From positions 1 through 22,476 of IMG/VR virus record IMGVR_UViG_3300048550_000910: 22,476 bases of DNA; one strand, written 5' to 3'. The stretch comes from a virus. Of this stretch, positions 3,393-21,411 are shown piece after piece. The notes beneath the pieces are model-generated. The model searched no databases. It saw only the letters and a program-made list of their open reading frames with translations, and had not been told where the DNA came from. Within the stretch, counting starts at the first letter, position 1, and each line of letters begins with the position of its first letter. The position numbers and the translations under genes were made by a program.

Positions 3393-4958
3393 ATGGAATA
3401 TAATCAACCTAGCCAGATTGTAAAAGATTTGGCGTTTGGCGAATCAGCCAGAGACAAAGTAATAACTGGGGTAGACAAACTTACCTCAGCAGTAAAATCA
3501 ACATTAGGTGCTTCAGGTAAATGTGTTATCTATGAAGACGCCATGGGAAAACCGGTGATTACAAAAGATGGTGTAACCGTTGCGGAAAGCGTAGTCTTAT
3601 TTGATCCGGTTGAAAACATAGGGGCGACACTCATCAAGGAAGCAGCTAAGAATACGGTGAGGGAAGCAGGCGACGGCACCACAACGGCGACCGTCCTTGC
3701 CCACTCACTATTAAAAGGCGCTAATGGGAGCAAAGGCGGGAACAATGACCGGGAAATAAAAAGCGGCATGTTTAAAGGATTATCTAAGGTAAATGCTTAC
3801 CTAGATAAAATAAGTGTACCCGTTGAGGGCGATATGCTTTACAATGTAGCTAGCATCAGTTGCAACAATGATACAACACTCGGCGCATTTATAGCTGATG
3901 CGTTTACACGTGTGGGTAAAGACGGCGTTGTGCTAATGGAAGAATCTGATACCAGTGAAACGTATGTAGATTTTGTAGAAGGTACACAACTTAAATGCGG
4001 CCTTAAATCGCCACACCTTATTACTGATAAAGACAAAGGCACGGCTGTTTTAGACAACCCTTACGTCCTTATTGTATCTTCACCTATAGCAAACATTAGG
4101 AAAATTCAAAGTGTCTTAGAACACGTTATAAAGCAAAAGCGTAGTTTATTAATTGTTGCAAATATTGAGCAGCAACCAACTGCAGCACTTTTAGCTAACA
4201 AAGTGAAGGGCAATATTAAAGTAAATATAATCGACCCTCCGGGATTTGGACCAACCAAACAAGATACGATTGAAGATTTAGCGTTTTTAACAGGCGCTAG
4301 GGTAATTAATGAAGAGTTAGGTGATGACTTAGATCTTATTGATCCTTCAGTGCTAGGTGAAGCGGTAAAGGCTATAACGGACGAAAAAAACACCATACTT
4401 CAAACTATTGATTTAGGTAATGACTTTAAAGAAAGACTCGAATTTATTGAAAAGAAAATTGCAGAAGAGTCTAACCCGTATTTTAAGAAACGACTGCAGG
4501 AAAGACAAGCGATGTTGAACGGTGCTGTCGGAATCGTAAAAATCGGTGCGGATTCTAAAGTTGAGCTAAAAGAAAAGAAAGATAGAGTAGAAGATGCAAT
4601 ATATGCTGTTAAAGCAGCACTGCAAGAAGGTATTGTGCCCGGTGGCGGAATTGCACTTCTAAATGCTTCACAAAAAATTAAGCCCTCCGGGCTAGGTGAA
4701 GATATATTACTACAGGCTATACAAGCACCATTTAAAACAATACTTGAAAACGCAGGTATTGAAATGGATAATTTCAAAGCAAACGCAGGAAAAGGTATAG
4801 ATGTTACTTCAGGTAAAATAATTAATATGGTAAAAGCTGGTATTATAGATCCAGTATTGGTAACAAAGACTGCGCTTAAAAATGCAGTATCAGTTGCTAC
4901 TACAATATTCTCGGCTGATTGTGTAATTTCAAATATGAGAACAAATGCAGGCGATTAA
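3393..4958 (+). CDS. groEL: phage-encoded chaperonin GroEL, 521 aa
   Basis: Full-length group I chaperonin that would form an ATP-driven folding ring in the host cytoplasm. Family landmarks are in order: TLGASGK (37-43), ITKDG (56-60), the nucleotide-binding GDGTTT (93-98), PGFG in the apical domain (283-286), the VEDA box with the hydrolysis Asp at 401, GGG (417-419) and an IIDP motif near 486. It is about 27 residues shorter than the E. coli protein and lacks the Gly-Gly-Met C-terminal tail. Several apical positions that bind substrate or GroES in E. coli appear changed (for example, Tyr to Leu or His near 204-208), by alignment from memory. The start follows an A/T leader (ACAATTTAATTAA). 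The 3' end overlaps groES by 14 bases. It probably folds virion proteins; all catalytic residues are present, so activity is likely. Confidence 0.93.
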   Translation: MEYNQPSQIVKDLAFGESARDKVITGVDKLTSAVKSTLGASGKCVIYEDAMGKPVITKDGVTVAESVVLFDPVENIGATLIKEAAKNTVREAGDGTTTATVLAHSLLKGANGSKGGNNDREIKSGMFKGLSKVNAYLDKISVPVEGDMLYNVASISCNNDTTLGAFIADAFTRVGKDGVVLMEESDTSETYVDFVEGTQLKCGLKSPHLITDKDKGTAVLDNPYVLIVSSPIANIRKIQSVLEHVIKQKRSLLIVANIEQQPTAALLANKVKGNIKVNIIDPPGFGPTKQDTIEDLAFLTGARVINEELGDDLDLIDPSVLGEAVKAITDEKNTILQTIDLGNDFKERLEFIEKKIAEESNPYFKKRLQERQAMLNGAVGIVKIGADSKVELKEKKDRVEDAIYAVKAALQEGIVPGGGIALLNASQKIKPSGLGEDILLQAIQAPFKTILENAGIEMDNFKANAGKGIDVTSGKIINMVKAGIIDPVLVTKTALKNAVSVATTIFSADCVISNMRTNAGD

Positions 4959-5202
4959 TTATTTTGTAGTAATAGAAAAAATAAAAGAAGCCCCAAAAAC
5001 AGTTGGAGGGCTTGAGCTGACGGAAACGCAAAATAGCGACGTTAGGTACCTAAAGGGTAAAGTAATATCTGCCGGGGATCAAGTTACAATGTTAAAAGAA
5101 GGGGACGTTGTGTATTACGACAAGCACAATGGGCATGGCATACAATGGAAAGATCAATTGTTCCATGTGTTAAAGCTTGGCGATATTGTTCTTGTGGAAT
5201 GA
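4945..5202 (+). CDS. groES: phage-encoded co-chaperonin GroES, 85 aa
   Basis: Co-chaperonin lid for the GroEL ring. The sequence shows the expected order: an N-terminal strand (YFVVIEKIKE), the mobile loop with GGLEL at 21-25 (GGIVL in E. coli), KGKVISAGD, the LKEGDVVYYDK strand (matching VGDIVIF) and the C-terminal LKLGDIVLVE. It is about 12 residues shorter than E. coli GroES. Its ATG lies inside the last codons of groEL in another frame, so translation is probably coupled. The order groEL-groES is the reverse of the usual bacterial operon. The mobile-loop tripeptide carries an acidic residue (Leu-Glu-Leu), which may match changes in the partner GroEL; that is inference. Confidence 0.88.
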   Translation: MQAINYFVVIEKIKEAPKTVGGLELTETQNSDVRYLKGKVISAGDQVTMLKEGDVVYYDKHNGHGIQWKDQLFHVLKLGDIVLVE

Positions 5203-9195: not shown

Positions 9196-12100
9196 ATGAG
9201 TAAAATACCGTTTTTAGACCCAGCGTGGTTAAAAGCAGGGTTAGTTGATACTTCAGGCGATGCTGGCTCAAGCGGGCAAATACTTTCGTCAACTGGCTCT
9301 GGCGTTAACTGGATAAACCAAGGTGATATAACATCTGGTCAAGTTGACAAGGCTCTTTCGCTTACGTTGCAAGTAAAGAACACAGAATCTGTAGCGCTAA
9401 CAAAGGGACAAGTTGTTTGCGCCGCGCCTACTGCTACACCACCGTCTGGAAATGTTATTGAAGTAAAACTTGCTGACAATGACGGTACAGATAGTATGCC
9501 AGCTATTGGTATTCTAAACGAAGGCTTAGACGCTGCAGGCGGGGAAAATGATGAAGGCGAAGCTATTATGTTTGGCCGTATTTCCGGTATAGATACATCC
9601 GCATTTTCTGTAGGCGATGAAGTTTTTGTTTCAGATACAGCAGGAGCTTTAATCGCTACAAAACCAACTGGCGTAAAATACATTCAAAAAGTTGGGGTTG
9701 TAATGCGCGACGACGCTTCCAATGGTACAATAGAAGTTTTTGGTGCGGGAAGAACAAACGATGTACCGACTCCATTATATATAGATCACACTAATCAGCG
9801 CTTGGGGATTGGGACGGCTAGTCCTGGAGCTAAGTTAGAGGTTGCAGGTACTGGTGAATTATCTTTTAAAATAAATAACACACAACACAGTAGATCACTA
9901 ATTATAGAACAAGGTGGTGGTTATTCACATTTAAAAGCATCGCATGTTTCAGGGATCGCTATTAATTACGGCCAAGGGAATCCTGGTATTCTTTCATTGT
10001 TTAACAACACAACACAAGCCGTAAAAATAAACACGAATGGTAATTCATATCTTAACGGCGGCAACGTCGGGATTGGGACTACTAGTCCCACACATCTACT
10101 TACTTTAGAGACCGCAAGTTCTCCAGGTTTAAAAATAAAAGACACTACGCAGGGAGCTACCTTGCTGGCTTTTAGCCAAGATTCCAATTCACATATAGGT
10201 ACTTACAGTTCACACCCATTGGTTTTGGATACTAATAGTTCAGAAAGAATGCGCATCACCTCAGGTGGCAACGTTGGGATTGGGACGGATAGTCCTATAT
10301 CTAAATTAGAAATTAGTCAGCAGTTATCCGCCGCTTCTACTATAGATTATCCTTATACTATTTCGTCAAGAGACGATGGAAATTCAATTAATCAACTTGG
10401 CGGCGAAGGAGTTGGTATTAAGTTTAGAGTAGCAGGGAACGATGCTACCGATCCAGGTAATAGTTTAGTTGGAGCAAGTATTGCTGCAATAAGAGAAAGT
10501 TCATCTGATTCAGTTAGTAATACTGGTTTAGGATTTTTTGTTACACAAAATGATGAAACATTAGACGAGGCTGTAAGAATAGATAGCGCAGGCAACGTCG
10601 GTATTGGAACGACTAGTCCTGGGGCAAAGCTTCAAGTTAATGGAGGTGTTTTATTAGGTAGCGCATACGTACAACCAGCAGGTTCTTCTTGGACGACTTC
10701 TAACTCTCAGTTGATACTAGGAGGCGCTCATAATACAGAATTTAACGATGACAACCCCGGGGTTAAGCTTTTAATAAGTGGATATAATAACGACGGCACC
10801 ACTCTTTACCCGATATACGTAGAAGATGAAAACGGACTTCCAGATTTTTGGTTAAAAAACAGACCTTCTGGTACAGGTTTGCCTACGGCTTATTTTGCAG
10901 GCAACGTAGGGATTGGGACGACTAGTCCTTCTCATGACTTAACTATAAATTCAGCAACAGGCGGTCAATTACAATTTCAGTATAATACATTAAGTCGTTT
11001 AAGAATTGAAGCTGATTCAGGAGGTGGTTCTTATTATGCTGCTGCGGGATTTTACCATAGGTTTTTTACTTCAGGAGCAGAACGTATGCGCATCGATTCG
11101 TCAGGCAACGTTGGAATTGGAACGACTAGTCCATCACAAAAAATTGAAGTGTCTGGCAGTGTTAATAATAATGATATTGCGGTTTTAATTAAAAATAACT
11201 ATGACGATAATCTTTCAACAAGTAGACCAGCCGCTGCGTTGCTATTTAGTACAGCTAGTAATAATGGGTATTTAAGAGTTTATGGTGCTCCAGCAGATAC
11301 CGCAGCAAACCATCAAATTGATTTAGGGTCAACAGCTGGGGGTAGTTATTTAACATTTTCTCCATCTGGTTCTGAAAAAATGCGCATTGAAGCGGATGGG
11401 AGTATTATATTTAATGATTATGGGTCTGGCTCCAATACAGGAACAGTTGCGTATAATTTAGCTGTAGATTCTTCAGGTAATATTATAGAGAACTCTGCAA
11501 ATACAAGAAGTGTTTTTGTAGCAACTTCAACAGCTTCAGGATATAATATAAACACTACAACTACAATAAGTTGGAATAGTGAAGATATAAAAGATTCTGG
11601 CTACACACATAGTAATTCTACAAATAACGACTCAATAACAATTACACAAGCCGGTACGTATAAAATATATGCAGCTATAACATATACAACAGCAGTTGAA
11701 AGAGCAAATGTAGCTTTACAAATACTGGTAAACGGCACTGCAACCGGGGCAAGAGGTGCTGGTGGTTATGTTAGATCTCAAAGCGGGCATAGTGACGGCA
11801 CTACAATTGTAGAAGATTATGTTACGCTAAGTGCTAATGATGTTATAAAAATACAAACGTCGCAAGAAGCAGCAGCAGGTACTGTAAATCTTATATCAGG
11901 CGAGTCAAAAATTATTATTGAAAAACTTACAGGACTTACGCTTTCAACCACAAATGCTAATACCTTGGGTGGCCTTGGAGCTACCGATTTTGTTCAGGTT
12001 TCAGGCGATACAATGACTGGCGACTTGTATCTAGACGACGGTGATGGGGCAACTCCTTCTCTATATTTTAAAAATGGAGCTAATAATTTTTGGAGATACC

Positions 12101-15100
12101 TTATGTTATCAGGGGGTGATTTTTCTATAAAAGAAGGAACATCAACGAGATTAACATTCCAAGCAGGCGGCAACGTTGGGATCGGGACTACAAGTCCGAG
12201 CAGAAAACTAGACGTTAGGGGAGATGCACAAATTCTTTCTACTGGGGCAACAGGCTTGAGAATTGTTGGAGGTAATACAGATGAAGTCTATATGATTTTT
12301 GGTGATGCCGATGATAATTCAATGGGCGGGTTTGGTTACGATAACAATACTAATGAACTTAGTATTGATGTAAACAACTCTGAGGCTATAAGAATAGATT
12401 CCTCCGGCAACGTCGGGATTGGGGCTACTAATCCTGAAAACATATTACACCTTAAAAGCCCTAATCCTTATTTAATACTAGAGGACACTTCAAATGCGAA
12501 TAAAAATAGAATTGCCAATGTAGATGGGAATATGCACTACCACGCGGACTACAATAACCAAATGGGTAACTCTAGACATATTTTTTATATAGATAACTCT
12601 GAAAAATTAAGAATAAATACCAACGGCAACGTCGGTATTGGAACAACTAGTCCAGGTAAAAAATTAGATGTCGCTGGAGAAATACAAGGAACAAATTTAT
12701 TTGCAGAAACTTACCGATCGGCTAGAACTGATGGTGATATTTACATTCAAGCTGCAACTGCAACAGATTTTGTTTCTATTGGAACACAAGTATCTCCTAA
12801 TTTAATGAGAATAGACGGTTCAGGAAACGTCGGGATTGGTACTACGAGTCCTGCGGCAAAATTAGAAGTTGCTGGTAATTCTATATTAGATAAAAAATCG
12901 ATTTTAAGACTACCAGGAATGAGTATGGGCTCGGGGGGTATCACTGATGAATATCTTGTTATTGCCAGAAAATATGATGGAGTAAATCAAAATGCCACTG
13001 GTATAATTGGTAAAATTATATTTTCAAGAGGAGGCACGACCGCTGGCAATAACCCATCAGAATATTATATCAATATTCAATGTGCTTATAATAGCGATGC
13101 TTTAAATAGTTTAACTTATACAGGAAGTGAAATATTTACAAGCCTTGATGTTGTTGATATAAGCGGAACTGATTATTATGCATTAAAAGTAAGAAGTAAC
13201 GGCGGGGGAGACACCAGTGATAGATTTTATGCTGAAGGCTTATTGATGGATGATGGAGACTCAAATATATTTACAAGAGTTAGATCAAGCGATGCATCAG
13301 TAACTGTTGTTTCAACTGGATCAATGACACCAACGGTTAAAATTAATGGGTCAGGTACAGCCAACTATGTAACCAAATGGAGTGATACAGATACTATTAC
13401 TAATTCTACTATCTATGACAATGGAACTAACGTCGGAATTGGTACTACGAGTCCAAGCCATAAATTTCATGTATCTAGCGGGAATGGTGATACAACTCAT
13501 ACAATACACGTTGCTCATACAAGAAACGATCCTGACACTGCTTCTAATGCTGTATTTATTGATGCTAATTACTCAGGCACAAAATCAGCTGCTACAGATA
13601 TAATACAAACTGGTTTAAAAGTAGATTTAGATTCTTCAGCTACTGGAACTGCTACTGATGAACATAGAGTATATGGTATTCATTCAGACACTAGAAATAG
13701 TGGTTTTGCTGATTTTGTATTTGGAACATACTCTTATGCTGAATCGAATTATACTGGCGGTAAAACTGCTAATCTTGGGGGTGTTTATGGTTTAGTTGCT
13801 CACGACGCTAATAGTGCAAGTGGTGGTGTTACAAATTTGTTCGGCGTAAAAGGTGTAGCACAAATACAAGATGATGGTGATGTAGATAATGCTTATGGTG
13901 GGCAATTCCAAGTGCTTATAGCAAACAATAGAGACGCGAATGTTGATGTTACAGTAGGAGTTGAAGCAGAAATACAAATTGATGAACAGAGTGCATTGAC
14001 CTATGGGGATATACATGGCTTTAGAGCAATTATAGATAACAACGAAGGTGCTGTACCAACCTTTGGAAACCAATATTTATTTAAAGGTGATTACCAAGGA
14101 ACAAAAGGCAGTAACGCTTACGGTATATATATAGAAGGTGATAAACATTACTTTGATGGAAACGTCGGGATCGGGACTACGAGTCCTGATTTAAAGCTAC
14201 ACCTTGCTCATTCAGATAGTAATAATGGGTTACTACTAGAACATACTTCTCAAGCAAATGGATTTCAAATTCTTCAAAATATTAGAGAAACTGAAGGTTT
14301 AATTTGGCAGAAATGGACTAATGGTTCTTTTACTTCAAACTTGATGACTCTTGACTATTCAGGCAACGTCGGGATTGGAACGACTAGCCCTCAACAGAAA
14401 CTTGATGTTAATGGGGATATTGCCATTAAAACTGCTACCCAGCTTAGTTTTAATACCAGCAATGGCACTCTTAGTGTTGGCGGTCACGCGGGGCAGCTCG
14501 ATTTATTAAGTAGCAGTATTTTTATTAATTATACCGGCGACGTCGGAATCGGGACGACTAACCCTGGTGCTAAGCTAGACGTAGAAGGTGGCGCCATAGG
14601 TAGTGCGCAAGGAGATTCTACAACAGCAGCTATATTTAGAGCGGGTAGACAAAATCTTTACTTTGAAAATCAAAGAACAGCTGCAGGATCTGATTGGAAT
14701 AACAATACGTTTAAGATTTTAGCAAAAATAGATACTACATCCCACCAGTCTATAGACTTTGTAAATGACGCTTCATACAATGAACACATTGATATATATA
14801 CAGGAAATCAAAGCTTCAATACAAGGTTTGCCGCGAACGGCAACGTAGGGATCGGGGACACGGCGCCAGGCGCTAAATTAACAGTATTTAGAACAGATAA
14901 CTCATATGCAATTAATTTATCTGACACTGAGTCTAGAGCTGGATTATCTGTAAAATCTTCGGGCAGCTTTGATAGCAAATTAACAATAAGCTCTGGGGCA
15001 AGCTCAAGGCAGTATATACAAGCTGTTAATAACGCTGCTACAACAGGAAGAGATATTGCTATAAATCCTTACGGAGGCAACGTCGGGATTGGGACTACGA

Positions 15101-16734
15101 GTCCAGGTGAAAAACTAACTATTTCAGGAGGAAACTTACTTGTAGCGGGTGATTATCAAAGCTTATACGTTGGCGGTAAAACAGATTCTTCGCAAGACGG
15201 TATTAGAATGTCTATCGATAACGCTGGTAATGGTTATTTTGATCACAGAGGTTCTGGCCTCTTGCATTTTAGAGTTGATTCATCAACAGGCGCAACTTCT
15301 AGAATGGTTATTAATTCCTCCGGCAACGTTGGGATTGGGACTACAAATCCTACTGCGAAATTGGGAATTCACCAAGCCGCAAATAATGGCAACACAGGGG
15401 CTTTTACAAATACTCATTTAAAACTTTCAGCTTCAGCTACAGCCGATGGAAGCGGCTTTTGTGGTATAACCGCTGCAACTTCAACCGCGAATAATTACGG
15501 TTATTCTTTTGGCGCACAAAGAACATCTGGCGGCGTAGGCGATTTTAAAATTAACTATCATAACAATTCCGCATCAGGCACAAATAGATTTTTAATAGAC
15601 CAAAACGGCAACGTCGGGATCGGGACTACTAATCCTGATGGTCTTTTAAATTTAAAACACACTAGCAGCTCTTCTTCTGTGGCTAATGATGCAACAGCTT
15701 ATGCATTAACATTAAATTTTGAAGGAGCTACAGGAGATTACGGTAGGCATATAGCTATAAGAGATGCGTCTGGACAAGCAGTAGCGGCTATTGGCGGGTA
15801 TGACGAAGGAACAGTTGGAGCAACGGGATTGTTTTTTGCTACAGGAAATGCCACAACAGCGGCTCAAGAGGTCATGATGATTGATTCCAGCGGCAACGTC
15901 GGGATTGGGACGACCAATCCTAGTAGACAACTAGAAGTTTCCAACACAGGGGATTCAATAATAAGAATAGCAGGGGATAGCGACAATGACACAGGAGAAT
16001 TAGGAGATGCCGTACTTGAAATGACTACTGATGGAGGAGGTCAAGGGTGGACAATAAGAAGTGCTAATGTAGGTGGAGGAACAGGTGATTTCAAAGTAAA
16101 CACTTTTATAGGCGGTACTGAGTCAAATAAACTACTAATTGACAGGGACGGCAACGTCGGGATTGGGACTACTAGTCCGAGTGAAAAACTTCACATATCT
16201 TCAAGCGACCAATCAACAGCAAGAATAAGATTATCTAATACAAATACAGGTAGTGGGGGTGATAATATTGATTTAGTAGCAGGTGTACACAATGTTACCC
16301 AAGACGGGTTTAGCGTATATAACGCGACATCTAACCAAACACAACTTGTTATACAAGGCGGTGGCAACGTCGGGATTGGGACTAGTACTCCTTCTTACAA
16401 ATTAGATGTTGCAGGTACAATTAGAGCAACAGGAGATGTTATAGCTTATTCAGATGTTAGAGTAAAAGAAAATATTAAAACAATAGACAATTCTTTAGAA
16501 AAAGTAAATCAATTAAGAGGTGTTGAATTTAATAAAATAGGAGAAGATAAAAAATCTATAGGTGTTATAGCGCAAGAAATAGAAAAGATATTGCCTGAAG
16601 TAGTAAGACAAGATGATAAAGGAATGAAATCTGTAGCGTATGGCAATATTACAGCCGTGCTTATTGAAGCTATAAAAGAACAGCAAAAACAAATTGACGA
16701 ACTTAAAAATAAATTAAATGCCTTTACCAAGTAG
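9196..16734 (+). CDS. giant tail-fibre protein with S74 self-cleaving chaperone, 2512 aa
   Basis: Host-recognition fibre. The N-terminus (MSKIPFLDPAWLKAGLVDTS) resembles that of the preceding fibre. A beta domain at about 50-190 follows. From about residue 200 to 2400 there are 21 copies of a (N)VGIGTTSPxxKL-type motif, usually 60-110 residues apart. At about 770-912 is a jelly-roll that looks C1q/TNF-like (ITQAGTYKIYAAITY). GDTMTGDLYL lies near 940 and GTANYVTKWSDTDTITNS near 1400. The C-terminus is a peptidase S74 intramolecular chaperone: YSDVRVKENI with Ser2419 and Lys2424 as the expected catalytic dyad, then a terminal coiled coil (AIKEQQKQIDELKNKL). By analogy with other S74 fibres it trimerises and cleaves itself, releasing about 94 residues. 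The next gene starts inside its last codons. Confidence 0.9.
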   Translation: MSKIPFLDPAWLKAGLVDTSGDAGSSGQILSSTGSGVNWINQGDITSGQVDKALSLTLQVKNTESVALTKGQVVCAAPTATPPSGNVIEVKLADNDGTDSMPAIGILNEGLDAAGGENDEGEAIMFGRISGIDTSAFSVGDEVFVSDTAGALIATKPTGVKYIQKVGVVMRDDASNGTIEVFGAGRTNDVPTPLYIDHTNQRLGIGTASPGAKLEVAGTGELSFKINNTQHSRSLIIEQGGGYSHLKASHVSGIAINYGQGNPGILSLFNNTTQAVKINTNGNSYLNGGNVGIGTTSPTHLLTLETASSPGLKIKDTTQGATLLAFSQDSNSHIGTYSSHPLVLDTNSSERMRITSGGNVGIGTDSPISKLEISQQLSAASTIDYPYTISSRDDGNSINQLGGEGVGIKFRVAGNDATDPGNSLVGASIAAIRESSSDSVSNTGLGFFVTQNDETLDEAVRIDSAGNVGIGTTSPGAKLQVNGGVLLGSAYVQPAGSSWTTSNSQLILGGAHNTEFNDDNPGVKLLISGYNNDGTTLYPIYVEDENGLPDFWLKNRPSGTGLPTAYFAGNVGIGTTSPSHDLTINSATGGQLQFQYNTLSRLRIEADSGGGSYYAAAGFYHRFFTSGAERMRIDSSGNVGIGTTSPSQKIEVSGSVNNNDIAVLIKNNYDDNLSTSRPAAALLFSTASNNGYLRVYGAPADTAANHQIDLGSTAGGSYLTFSPSGSEKMRIEADGSIIFNDYGSGSNTGTVAYNLAVDSSGNIIENSANTRSVFVATSTASGYNINTTTTISWNSEDIKDSGYTHSNSTNNDSITITQAGTYKIYAAITYTTAVERANVALQILVNGTATGARGAGGYVRSQSGHSDGTTIVEDYVTLSANDVIKIQTSQEAAAGTVNLISGESKIIIEKLTGLTLSTTNANTLGGLGATDFVQVSGDTMTGDLYLDDGDGATPSLYFKNGANNFWRYLMLSGGDFSIKEGTSTRLTFQAGGNVGIGTTSPSRKLDVRGDAQILSTGATGLRIVGGNTDEVYMIFGDADDNSMGGFGYDNNTNELSIDVNNSEAIRIDSSGNVGIGATNPENILHLKSPNPYLILEDTSNANKNRIANVDGNMHYHADYNNQMGNSRHIFYIDNSEKLRINTNGNVGIGTTSPGKKLDVAGEIQGTNLFAETYRSARTDGDIYIQAATATDFVSIGTQVSPNLMRIDGSGNVGIGTTSPAAKLEVAGNSILDKKSILRLPGMSMGSGGITDEYLVIARKYDGVNQNATGIIGKIIFSRGGTTAGNNPSEYYINIQCAYNSDALNSLTYTGSEIFTSLDVVDISGTDYYALKVRSNGGGDTSDRFYAEGLLMDDGDSNIFTRVRSSDASVTVVSTGSMTPTVKINGSGTANYVTKWSDTDTITNSTIYDNGTNVGIGTTSPSHKFHVSSGNGDTTHTIHVAHTRNDPDTASNAVFIDANYSGTKSAATDIIQTGLKVDLDSSATGTATDEHRVYGIHSDTRNSGFADFVFGTYSYAESNYTGGKTANLGGVYGLVAHDANSASGGVTNLFGVKGVAQIQDDGDVDNAYGGQFQVLIANNRDANVDVTVGVEAEIQIDEQSALTYGDIHGFRAIIDNNEGAVPTFGNQYLFKGDYQGTKGSNAYGIYIEGDKHYFDGNVGIGTTSPDLKLHLAHSDSNNGLLLEHTSQANGFQILQNIRETEGLIWQKWTNGSFTSNLMTLDYSGNVGIGTTSPQQKLDVNGDIAIKTATQLSFNTSNGTLSVGGHAGQLDLLSSSIFINYTGDVGIGTTNPGAKLDVEGGAIGSAQGDSTTAAIFRAGRQNLYFENQRTAAGSDWNNNTFKILAKIDTTSHQSIDFVNDASYNEHIDIYTGNQSFNTRFAANGNVGIGDTAPGAKLTVFRTDNSYAINLSDTESRAGLSVKSSGSFDSKLTISSGASSRQYIQAVNNAATTGRDIAINPYGGNVGIGTTSPGEKLTISGGNLLVAGDYQSLYVGGKTDSSQDGIRMSIDNAGNGYFDHRGSGLLHFRVDSSTGATSRMVINSSGNVGIGTTNPTAKLGIHQAANNGNTGAFTNTHLKLSASATADGSGFCGITAATSTANNYGYSFGAQRTSGGVGDFKINYHNNSASGTNRFLIDQNGNVGIGTTNPDGLLNLKHTSSSSSVANDATAYALTLNFEGATGDYGRHIAIRDASGQAVAAIGGYDEGTVGATGLFFATGNATTAAQEVMMIDSSGNVGIGTTNPSRQLEVSNTGDSIIRIAGDSDNDTGELGDAVLEMTTDGGGQGWTIRSANVGGGTGDFKVNTFIGGTESNKLLIDRDGNVGIGTTSPSEKLHISSSDQSTARIRLSNTNTGSGGDNIDLVAGVHNVTQDGFSVYNATSNQTQLVIQGGGNVGIGTSTPSYKLDVAGTIRATGDVIAYSDVRVKENIKTIDNSLEKVNQLRGVEFNKIGEDKKSIGVIAQEIEKILPEVVRQDDKGMKSVAYGNITAVLIEAIKEQQKQIDELKNKLNAFTK
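9800..16392 (+). repeat. 21 dispersed copies of a ~30-bp coding repeat in the fibre gene
   Basis: Approximate starts: 9800, 10060, 10267, 10591, 10901, 11105, 12168, 12406, 12626, 12825, 13428, 14160, 14364, 14539, 14839, 15076, 15319, 15606, 15892, 16150 and 16363. The best copies share GGCAACGTCGGGATTGGG exactly (10060, 12406, 15076, 15892, 16150 and 16363). The repeat is G/C-rich within an A/T-rich gene and conserved at synonymous positions, unlike the sequence between copies. Confidence 0.85.
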
Positions 16735-18366: not shown

Positions 18367-18972
18367 ATGCGAAGCATTTTTAGTTTTATAGTTGAGCCAA
18401 AAGAAGAGCGTTATAATAACAAAAAACAAATTGGCGATAACGAATTAATATTAAATACAGAAATATCTGATCATAGGTATATTAGCAGAAATGCTATTGT
18501 GCTTGAAACCCCATTAGCCGAAAAAACAGATATTAAAAAAGGTGACGAAGTAATCGTACACCATAATGTTTTTCGCAGATGGTATGATGTTCGTGGTAAA
18601 GAAAAAAATTCATCAAGTTACTTTGAAGAAGACAAATACTTTATAACTGCCGACCAAATTTTTTTATACAAGCGTAATAGCAAATGGCACGCACCAAAAG
18701 GTTTTTGTTTTGTAAAGCCTTTAAAATCTAATGATAAATTTAATACCGACCAAGAAAGACCTTTAATAGGTATTATAAAATATACTGATAAAGCCTTAGA
18801 AAAAAACGGTATTAAAAACGAATGCTTAGTTGGTTTCACACCTTCAAGTGAATATGAATTTATTATAGAGGGCGAAAGAATGTATCGTGTGCCGACCAAT
18901 TCAATTTCAATTAAATATGAGTATCAAGGAAACGAAGAAGAATATAATCCAAGCTGGACGCAAAGCAGTTGA
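18367..18972 (+). CDS. probable tandem GroES-fold protein, 201 aa
   Basis: Two halves each follow the GroES strand order. First half (about 5-102): FSFIVEPKEE, NELIL, RNAIVLETP, IKKGDEVIVHHNVF, then KYFITADQIFLYKR, matching the GroES elements RVIV, GGIVL, GEVLAVG, VKVGDIVIF and VLIMSESDILAIV. Second half (about 111-185): GFCFVKPL, PLIGIIKYTD, NGIKNECLVGFTPSSEYEF, then RMYRVPTNSISIKY. The first half carries a long insertion after HHNVFRRW. No canonical GG-hydrophobic mobile loop is obvious. It lies directly before the terminase genes. If the call is right, the phage makes two co-chaperonin-like proteins. A structural beta-barrel protein unrelated to GroEL binding is the alternative. Confidence 0.5.
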   Translation: MRSIFSFIVEPKEERYNNKKQIGDNELILNTEISDHRYISRNAIVLETPLAEKTDIKKGDEVIVHHNVFRRWYDVRGKEKNSSSYFEEDKYFITADQIFLYKRNSKWHAPKGFCFVKPLKSNDKFNTDQERPLIGIIKYTDKALEKNGIKNECLVGFTPSSEYEFIIEGERMYRVPTNSISIKYEYQGNEEEYNPSWTQSS

Positions 18973-19192
18973 TGAGCTTATAAAGGTTGCTGAAGAAAAA
19001 ATCATTACTAACACAGAAGATGATGTTTCAACAGACAGGCTTAAAAACGCTGCGGCTACAAAAAAGCTTGCAATATTTGATGCTTTTGAAATATTGAATA
19101 GAATCCAAGAAGAGGAAGCTATACTTGAAAATAAACCGCGGAAAGAAACAAAAGAAGCGTTTAAAGGTTTTGCTGAAAAAAGAAGTAGGTAA
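18917..19192 (+). CDS. candidate terminase small subunit, 91 aa
   Basis: Starts at ATG 18917 (MSIKETKKNIIQAGRKAVDE), 56 bases inside the previous gene; a GTG at 18887 would add ten residues but is less likely. The protein is wholly helical, with a core (RLKNAAATKKLAIFDAFEIL) and a basic C-terminal tail (FKGFAEKRSR). Small, helical and directly upstream of the large terminase with a TAATG overlap, it fits the small subunit that recognises phage DNA and regulates the packaging motor. The call rests mainly on position; I do not see a clear helix-turn-helix. Confidence 0.5.
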   Translation: MSIKETKKNIIQAGRKAVDELIKVAEEKIITNTEDDVSTDRLKNAAATKKLAIFDAFEILNRIQEEEAILENKPRKETKEAFKGFAEKRSR

Positions 19193-21411
19193 TGTATAAG
19201 CAAACTTTATATAAGGTTATAGAGCCCATTAAAATAAACAAGCTTAAAAGATTTAATAAAGCTAAGCGGTGGAAATACGGTTATAACAAGGAAGAAGATA
19301 TTGTTGTTATAAGCAAAACCGGACAGATTGGCGATGTGTATAGCATACAAAATCTCAAAATAGCTTTACCTCCCGCGCCCGCTAAATTAAGTAAAGGTGA
19401 TGATAAATGGGTTAAAGCAGAATACCCTAAAGAGTTAAGTAAAATAAAAACCATATTTGATTGGAAAAATTATCCTCCCGAATTCCAAGAAAAATGGGAG
19501 CCATATATAGATGAAGAATTCAAAAGACGTGAAGAAGGCCATTGGTTCTATAATAAGGGCGTGGCTACTTACATTACTGGTACTAACTATATGTACTTGC
19601 AGTGGACCAAGATTGATGTTGGGGCACCTGAGTTTAGAGAAGCAAACAGACTTTTCTTTATTTTCTGGGAAGCTTGCAAAGCAGATACCAGGTGTTATGG
19701 AATGTGCTATCTCAAAAACAGACGTTCGGGATTTTCGTTTATGGCATCGGCTGAAACCGTTAACTGGGCTACAATATCAAGCGACGCACGTTTCGGAATA
19801 TTGTCCAAATCTGGTTCCGATGCAAAAAAAATGTTTACAGATAAAGTTGTACCAATATCAATAAACTATCCGTTCTTTTTTAAACCAATACAAGACGGTA
19901 TGGACCGCCCAAAAACAGAACTAGCTTACAGGGTACCCGCATCAAAATTAACAAGAAAATCAATAGCATCAGGACAGCAGCGCGAAGAGCTTGAAGGCTT
20001 AGATACAACTATTGACTGGAAAAATACAGGTGACAACAGTTATGACGGTGAAAAACTAAAACTGTTAGTACACGACGAAAGTGGTAAATGGGAAAAGCCG
20101 GATAACATATTAAATAACTGGCGTGTAACAAAAACTACATTAAGATTAGGTAGTAGAGTTATAGGTAAGTGTATGATGGGATCAACATCAAACGCATTAG
20201 ATAAAGGTGGTGAAAACTTTAAAAAATTATATAATGATTCCAACGTTACAAAAAGAAACCGCAATGGACAGACTCGCAGCGGATTATATAGTTTGTTCAT
20301 ACCTATGGAGTGGAATTACGAAGGATTCATTGATTCTTATGGACACCCTGTCTTTGATACGCCGGCAGAACCAGCTGAAGGCCCATACGGGGACCTCATT
20401 GACCAAGGAGTAATAGAGCATTGGGATAATGAGGTTGATGGATTAAAAGGCGACCAGGACGGCTTAAACGAATATTACAGGCAATTCCCGCGCACTGAAG
20501 AGCATGCGTTTCGAGATGAAACAAAAAATAGCATATTTAATCTAGCTAGAATATACGAGCAAATAGATTATAATGACGATATTGAATCTTTAGCAGGGGT
20601 TACAACAGGTAGCTTTCAATGGGAAAATGGAATAAAAGATAGTAAAGTAGAGTTCGTACCAAACCCAAATGGAAGATTTAAAGTAAGCTGGGTGCCACCT
20701 GCAAATTTACAAAACCGTGTAATAGTAAAGAATGGGGTAAATTACCCTGGAAATGAGCATATGGGTGCCTTTGGCTGTGATAGTTACGATATATCAGGTA
20801 CTACAGACGGGCAAGGATCTAAAGGCGCACTGCATGGATTAACAAAATTTAGTATGGAAGATGCTCCTGCTAATATGTTTTTTTTAGAATATGTAGCGCG
20901 CCCACAAACAGCAGAAATGTTTTTTGAAGATGTGCTTATGTCATTGGTATTTTACGGAATGCCATTGCTTGCGGAAAATAACAAACCTAGATTATTATAT
21001 TATTTAAGAAGAAGAGGTTATCGCGGATTTTCAATGAATAGACCTGACAGAGCTAGAAACAAGCTATCTGTTACAGAAAAAGAAATTGGTGGAATTCCTA
21101 ACTCTTCTGAAGATATACGGCAAGCACATGCCGCTGCAATAGAATCATACATACAAAAATATGTTGGTTTATCAGAAAATGGCGAATATGGAAATATGTA
21201 TTTCAATAATACATTAAATGATTGGGCAAAATTTGATATAAACAAAAGAACAAAATATGATGCCGCCATTAGTTCTGGCTTAGCAATTATGGCTTGTAAT
21301 AAAAATTTATATGCCCCAAATCAAGAAAAACAAAAATTAAAGCTTAATCTGAACATCGCTAGATATAAAAACGATGGTTCACAATCTAAAATAATAAAAA
21401 ATTATGGCTGA
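19192..21411 (+). CDS. terminase large subunit, 739 aa
   Basis: DNA-packaging ATPase and headful or site-specific nuclease. ATPase half: the Walker A position is taken by KNRRSGFSF (175-183), which lacks the classical GKS/T. Walker B is LLVHDES (291-297) with Asp294 and Glu295, and the coupling motif is MMGSTSN (328-334). Nuclease half: GCDSYD gives Asp530 and Asp533, with Glu595 (PLLAENNKPR) and Asp690 (KYDAAISSGLA) as further RNase H-fold acids. The layout and length match the large terminases of crAss-like and related Bacteroidota phages, as I remember them. It overlaps the upstream gene by one base and the portal gene by eight, a typical packaging operon. Confidence 0.88.
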   Translation: MYKQTLYKVIEPIKINKLKRFNKAKRWKYGYNKEEDIVVISKTGQIGDVYSIQNLKIALPPAPAKLSKGDDKWVKAEYPKELSKIKTIFDWKNYPPEFQEKWEPYIDEEFKRREEGHWFYNKGVATYITGTNYMYLQWTKIDVGAPEFREANRLFFIFWEACKADTRCYGMCYLKNRRSGFSFMASAETVNWATISSDARFGILSKSGSDAKKMFTDKVVPISINYPFFFKPIQDGMDRPKTELAYRVPASKLTRKSIASGQQREELEGLDTTIDWKNTGDNSYDGEKLKLLVHDESGKWEKPDNILNNWRVTKTTLRLGSRVIGKCMMGSTSNALDKGGENFKKLYNDSNVTKRNRNGQTRSGLYSLFIPMEWNYEGFIDSYGHPVFDTPAEPAEGPYGDLIDQGVIEHWDNEVDGLKGDQDGLNEYYRQFPRTEEHAFRDETKNSIFNLARIYEQIDYNDDIESLAGVTTGSFQWENGIKDSKVEFVPNPNGRFKVSWVPPANLQNRVIVKNGVNYPGNEHMGAFGCDSYDISGTTDGQGSKGALHGLTKFSMEDAPANMFFLEYVARPQTAEMFFEDVLMSLVFYGMPLLAENNKPRLLYYLRRRGYRGFSMNRPDRARNKLSVTEKEIGGIPNSSEDIRQAHAAAIESYIQKYVGLSENGEYGNMYFNNTLNDWAKFDINKRTKYDAAISSGLAIMACNKNLYAPNQEKQKLKLNLNIARYKNDGSQSKIIKNYG

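Follow-up and report, generated by a model that had tools for sequence, protein, structure and literature searches.

The window, by which we mean the whole analysed stretch of 22,476 bases, an IMG/VR virus fragment, carries three chained genes on its plus strand. The first encodes a GroEL-like chaperonin (3393-4958, 521 aa, ATG start), which scored 192.9 bits against the Pfam family Cpn60_TCP1 (PF00118, E 1e-56, cut-off 34.3) and had a PHROG match at 1e-131. The second encodes a GroES-like co-chaperonin (4945-5202, 85 aa, ATG start), which reached 38.8 bits against the Pfam family Cpn10 (PF00166, E 1e-9, cut-off 21.1) and whose mobile loop reads GGLELT, as an earlier note on this DNA had claimed. 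That note had described a full phage-borne groEL-groES pair in an order reversed relative to bacteria, and this description holds: both reading frames are intact and above the Pfam cut-offs, they overlap by 14 bp (4945-4958, plus strand), and the order GroEL then GroES is opposite to that of groES-groEL in E. coli and to the Bacteroidota host loci examined. Likewise, the catalytic motifs of the GroEL were correctly read, as GDGTTT (D94), D401 and G417-419 correspond to D87, D398 and G414-416 of E. coli, and the GGM tail is indeed missing. The GroES was also said to be full-length, which is true of its complete reading frame but not of the protein, since the roof hairpin is absent. The overlap of both genes is consistent with coupled translation, and its length differs between relatives. 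The note had overlooked this missing roof, the lost E. coli ring-ring contacts of the GroEL and the tandem GroES-like gene of the window, all of which are described below.

The third gene starts with the ATG at 5199, inside the GroES stop codon (ATGA), and extends to 5639 on the plus strand. Its product of 146 aa belongs to PHROG 17028 of unknown function, and no relative was found in Pfam or the PDB; from the look of the sequence, which gives an impression only, it is possibly a winged-helix DNA-binding protein or regulator. A relative of this gene directly follows GroES in 79 of 80 related loci. With 75-85% identity among relatives it is better conserved than GroES. Searches for Rfam elements and tRNAs were negative both for the window and for the surroundings of the operon.

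Relatives are encoded on at least 597 IMG/VR stretches. GroEL precedes GroES in all of the 80 nearest IMG/VR loci (overlaps of 0-28 bp) and in all 80 loci of a wider profile-search set (54-71% identity), 78 of which overlap or abut. The two sets are partly redundant, some contigs being common to both, and together they give the order GroEL then GroES in 160 of 160 loci, with overlapping or abutting genes in 158. Three named phages, Elemovirus (Flavobacterium phage elemoE 6-9C, NC_055854), Maribacter phage Panino (PP540027) and Podoviridae ctfjg026 (MW202828), are annotated with GroEL before GroES as well. Flavobacterium phage immuto has the opposite order, GroES then GroEL, and in phi38:1 the order of transcription is Cpn10, a hypothetical gene and GroEL. 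Since pairs and the reversed order occur in named Bacteroidota phages, both are already known there, and the GroEL/GroES pair itself is of a kind known before from phages of marine flavobacteria. The statement that phages more often supply one partner only fails for the Bacteroidota phages of the collection, since many of these carry both genes. The rarity that the note implied for the pair was rejected for this phage group, and that of the reversed order was not supported.

No named phage matched the window at the nucleotide level. For the placing of the phage the large subunit of the terminase (19192-21411, plus strand) was used, and the nearest named relatives are Podoviridae ctfjg026 with 64% and Elemovirus with 45% identity. 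The GroEL and GroES of ctfjg026 are just 36% and 29% identical to those of the window, which suggests that the chaperonin module was exchanged or is fast-diverging there.

The nearest named phages infect Flavobacteriia, which makes flavobacterial hosts plausible and would also fit a flavobacterial groESL operon copied recently, or a chimaera from binning or assembly, as the source of the pair. The closest of 50 Bacteroidota GroELs, however, is only 41.7% identical to the window GroEL (E. coli GroEL: 37.5%), and in the GroEL phylogeny with Bacteroidota and phage homologues, which the earlier note had called for, the viral GroELs group in a clade of their own (SH-aLRT 99) that excludes those of Bacteroidota. 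The note had named a near-identical pair branching within one flavobacterial species as its refutation, and this was not observed. Long branches make the deep position of the viral clade among the GroELs of phages uncertain. A scan of 84,980 bacterial and archaeal genomes gave nine matches to the window GroEL, and those with at least 49% identity all lie in metagenome bins of mixed taxonomy, consistent with phage contigs; close relatives are spread over bins of several phyla. Together with the reversed gene order and the downstream gene kept in 79 of 80 loci, these results make a host pick-up or chimaera extremely improbable, and we rejected it. A Sphingobacteriales MAG (G001) contains two viral-type GroEL genes (contigs C26 and C28) beside one host-type GroEL.

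For the characterization of the GroEL, residues were surveyed in 157 viral relatives (E. coli numbering). All residues required for ATP and Mg binding and for catalysis (T30, G32, D52, D87, T89-91, D398, D495) are invariant in the 157 proteins and present in the window. The apical groove for GroES and substrate is remodelled: Y199 is replaced by L (133/157), Y203 by H (129/157) and V264, a known GroES-contact position, by A or M. L234, a conserved residue that binds GroES and substrate, is Q in all 157 sequences, so that the lid could bind weakly or in another way. L237 and N265 on the GroES-binding face are invariant. Among the salt bridges, the allosteric pair D83-K327 is charge-swapped (K/R-D/E) in 96 of 157 proteins, including R90-E331 of the window, R197-E386 is lost and D155-R395 is retained. 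We also checked the positions of the E. coli-type ring-ring contacts (K105/A109/E434 and R452/E461/S463/V464). This segment is trimmed, with E461 gapped in 145 and S463/V464 in 108 of the 157 sequences, and A109 is not retained. The loss of these contacts suggests that the viral GroEL probably forms single or weakly paired rings. The acidic residues of the cavity wall, D359, D361 and E363, are mostly P, F/I and K, and the GGM tail occurs in none of the 157 viral GroELs compared with 41 of 50 host proteins. As far as residues can tell, the viral GroEL would thus combine a working ATPase cycle with an altered chamber.

The predicted structure of the window GroES has the Cpn10 fold and matches Cpn10 chains, followed by T4 gp31 as a weak hit (1g31, E 7e-3). 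The segment that forms the roof comprises 12-13 residues in 161 of 161 relatives, while that of host proteins is 16-21 and that of E. coli 21 residues long; judged from the alignments, the viral GroES is without the roof hairpin in every relative examined, like T4 gp31. The latter lacks the roof loops as well, and the chamber of the gp31-GroEL complex is larger (PMC6318259). A lengthened mobile loop of the gp31 type was looked for and not found, the alignment of the 85-aa GroES containing no loop insertion. The loop tripeptide of the window, LEL, is also the most frequent form among the relatives, with LIM, LLL and LIL as variants; in the common variants positions 1 and 3 are hydrophobic and the middle position is often E.

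It had been proposed that GroEL and GroES are matched to each other, and one association points in this direction. Position 264 of GroEL and residue 26 of GroES, the middle of the loop, are associated with a phi of 0.84, by which GroEL 264 ranks second of 346 variable columns; an acidic residue 26 pairs with a small residue at GroEL 264. The trait changed only about four times on the tree, so the association lacks phylogenetic independence; well-supported branches supply a single independent pair, and a match between the partners stays suggestive.

A third protein with GroES similarity is encoded at 18367-18972 on the plus strand, where it immediately precedes the terminase gene group. It comprises 201 aa and is predicted to be a tandem two-domain GroES-like co-chaperonin with both domains arranged head to tail, the first being the weaker one. 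The protein matches PHROG 13932, co-chaperonin GroES, at 2e-21, while no Pfam family matches it, also with regard to the Cpn10 cut-off. Its relatives from phi46:3 (33.3 bits) and phi38:1 (28.2 bits) lie above this cut-off. A narrow profile of the tandem protein gave weak domain matches, and wider sampling raised the scores: in the comparison with GroES, domain 2 was a strong match (96.6%, E 5e-10) and domain 1 a moderate one (58%, E 1e-4), for which 30 column shuffles all gave lower scores. The AlphaFold2 model (pLDDT 80.5) had Cpn20 and Cpn23 of Chlamydomonas (7ekq) as top PDB folds, followed by Cpn10 chains. The matches to Cpn20 and Cpn23 span the whole chain with modest TM values of 0.51 and 0.47 (E 9e-4 and 1e-2). 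Domain 1 has a low-confidence loop in the model with a conserved hydrophobic LIL, and in domain 2 no mobile loop was seen. The C-terminus reads SWTQSS in the window (18960-18972), and the next gene overlaps it with its start. In several relatives (L101, L126, L151, L155 and L156) a stop codon stands at the position of the Q, with SS following in frame.

The tandem protein could be a second lid component of the phage GroEL, or a factor with a GroES fold in packaging or virion assembly, for example capping another ring, in which case the GroEL/GroES pair would act without it. The gene is found just upstream of the terminase in phages as different as Elemovirus, phi38:1 and phi46:3, which speaks for the latter role, as do the missing loop of domain 2 and the top fold match 7ekq, in which the Cpn20-bearing cap sits on the ClpP protease. 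Moreover, phi46:3 (Pachyviridae) encodes a single GroES and a tandem GroES (28560-28814 and 41804-42406 of its record) and no GroEL, so the tandem protein is not strictly dependent on a phage GroEL. Against a role apart from GroEL stand the presence of the tandem gene in 48 of 50 longer records carrying a GroEL of the window type and the flexible loop with its LIL retained in domain 1; the relative from phi46:3 contains the loop-like motifs SGLEL and SLIYIP, one per half. Distances between 41 records bear on the question as well. Those of GroEL, terminase, tandem protein and GroES are all inter-correlated (GroEL-terminase: 0.855 for complete terminases), from which it follows that the chaperonin genes were inherited with the phage backbone. 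After removal of terminase and portal distances, a partial r of 0.48 remained for GroEL and the tandem protein and of 0.25 for GroEL and GroES, so that the tandem protein tracks GroEL beyond the backbone. A mirror-tree result in which GroEL followed the tandem protein much more closely than the terminase was discarded, as incomplete terminases accounted for part of it; the partial correlations alone remain. They lend moderate support to the view that GroEL, GroES and the tandem protein would act together, and we regard a packaging or assembly factor as the possible but clearly less probable function.

We consider it likely that the phage has a group I chaperonin system of its own, consisting of a GroEL ring, a dedicated GroES lid and the tandem protein as a second lid component. 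GroEL would act as the ATP-driven ring and GroES, translated in overlap with it, as its dedicated lid, with the 201-aa protein most likely joining as the second lid component. Without roof hairpin and GGM tail the folding chamber should be larger or more open, and the likely task of a roofless lid on a GGM-less GroEL is the folding, at a late stage of infection, of phage structural proteins that are large or abundant. Phage protein folding would thereby be freed from dependence on the host GroEL/GroES. The intact ATPase residues, the GroES fold with its loop, the loss of the roof, the tandem architecture and the conservation of these genes and their joint occurrence are the parts that sequence and predicted structure support; the number of rings, the pairing of lids with rings, the composition of the lid, its substrates and the timing are what we infer.

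Several observations weigh against such a three-part system: the lid independence of the chaperonins of phages EL, OBP and AR9, the exchange L234Q in 157 of 157 sequences, the position of the tandem gene beside the terminase and away from the GroEL/GroES genes, the tandem GroES of phi46:3 in a phage without GroEL, and the missing Pfam match of the tandem protein of the window. If GroES and the tandem protein served mainly the host GroEL, in the manner of T4 gp31, the phage GroEL would mostly be a lone holdase like gp146 of phage EL. The altered apical groove (Y199L, Y203H, L234Q), the lid-independent phage GroELs characterised so far and phi46:3, with lids and no GroEL, would suit this arrangement, but it is quite unlikely in view of the adjacent genes in one order in 160 of 160 loci, the invariant L237 and N265 on the GroES-binding face and the association of GroES residue 26 with GroEL 264. 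Within the preferred three-part system, a hetero-oligomeric lid, for instance of one GroES and three tandem proteins (seven domains), on a single-ring GroEL would give a roofless, asymmetric chamber specialised for phage proteins; we hold this special form to be rather doubtful.

Compared with known phages, Elemovirus shares with the window the order GroEL then GroES (1-bp overlap), the roofless GroES and a tandem gene annotated as co-chaperonin GroES just upstream of the terminase. Its GroEL is 36.6% identical, retains L234 and R197-E386 and is encoded, like its GroES, on the other strand from the late genes around it, unlike in the window. Podoviridae ctfjg026 and Panino also have GroEL followed by GroES and a tandem protein, with GroELs just 36-38% identical. 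For chaperonins of the virioplankton, Marine et al. 2017 (ISME J 11:2479) reportedly connected the GroEL phylogeny with the order in which the genes of the large and the small subunit stand. We know of no tandem lid or loss of the roof described there or by Nishimura et al. 2017. The virioplankton of Marine et al. 2017 and the group-2 environmental genomes of Nishimura et al. 2017 resemble the window in carrying divergent viral GroELs in marine phages, the latter study listing GroEL in 36 phi38:1-like genomes without mention of GroES (PMC5332604). T4 gp31 is a phage co-chaperonin without roof loops as well, but its mobile loop is longer and it works with the GroEL of the host, whereas the window encodes its own GroEL. 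The chaperonins of the giant phages EL, OBP and AR9 function without a co-chaperonin (PMC9598537, PMC7185714). They share with the window a phage GroEL homologue with altered ring-ring contacts; that of phage EL, however, is only about 24% identical and needs no co-chaperonin.

A tandem layout of GroES is otherwise described from chloroplasts, and the phage protein appears from its model to consist of two joined GroES units. Chloroplasts combine Cpn10 and Cpn20, for which hetero-oligomers of seven domains have been proposed (PMC5780408), and the coexistence of single-domain and tandem two-domain GroES is common to both. Unlike the Cpn20 type, the phage protein has a mobile loop in domain 1 only, and no kinship with chloroplasts is implied. 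A text search of the literature, with incomplete coverage, turned up no description of a tandem GroES from phages. The combination of a roofless single lid, a tandem lid and a GroEL without the E. coli ring-ring contacts looks undescribed so far. Phage GroELs studied earlier derive from giant phages and are lid-free; here the lineage is widespread and combines GroEL with a roofless GroES and a predicted tandem GroES. Such a lineage would show how viruses rebuild the folding cage and whether mixed single and tandem lids arose outside plastids, and would supply compact natural variants for testing what roof, GGM tail and ring-ring contacts each contribute. Cultured relatives make the system testable, namely Elemovirus on Flavobacterium BAL314, Maribacter phage Panino and Cellulophaga phi38:1.

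Two further features of the window were recorded. On the minus strand, 1134-1385 and 2001-2252 encode near-tandem paralogues of 83 aa of the VNTLISKRFIIRKTLIGKG-type. The reading frame at 9196-16734 encodes a tail fibre of 2512 aa with many repeats of the NVGIGTTSP type, whose C-terminal region resembles an intramolecular chaperone of the endosialidase type.
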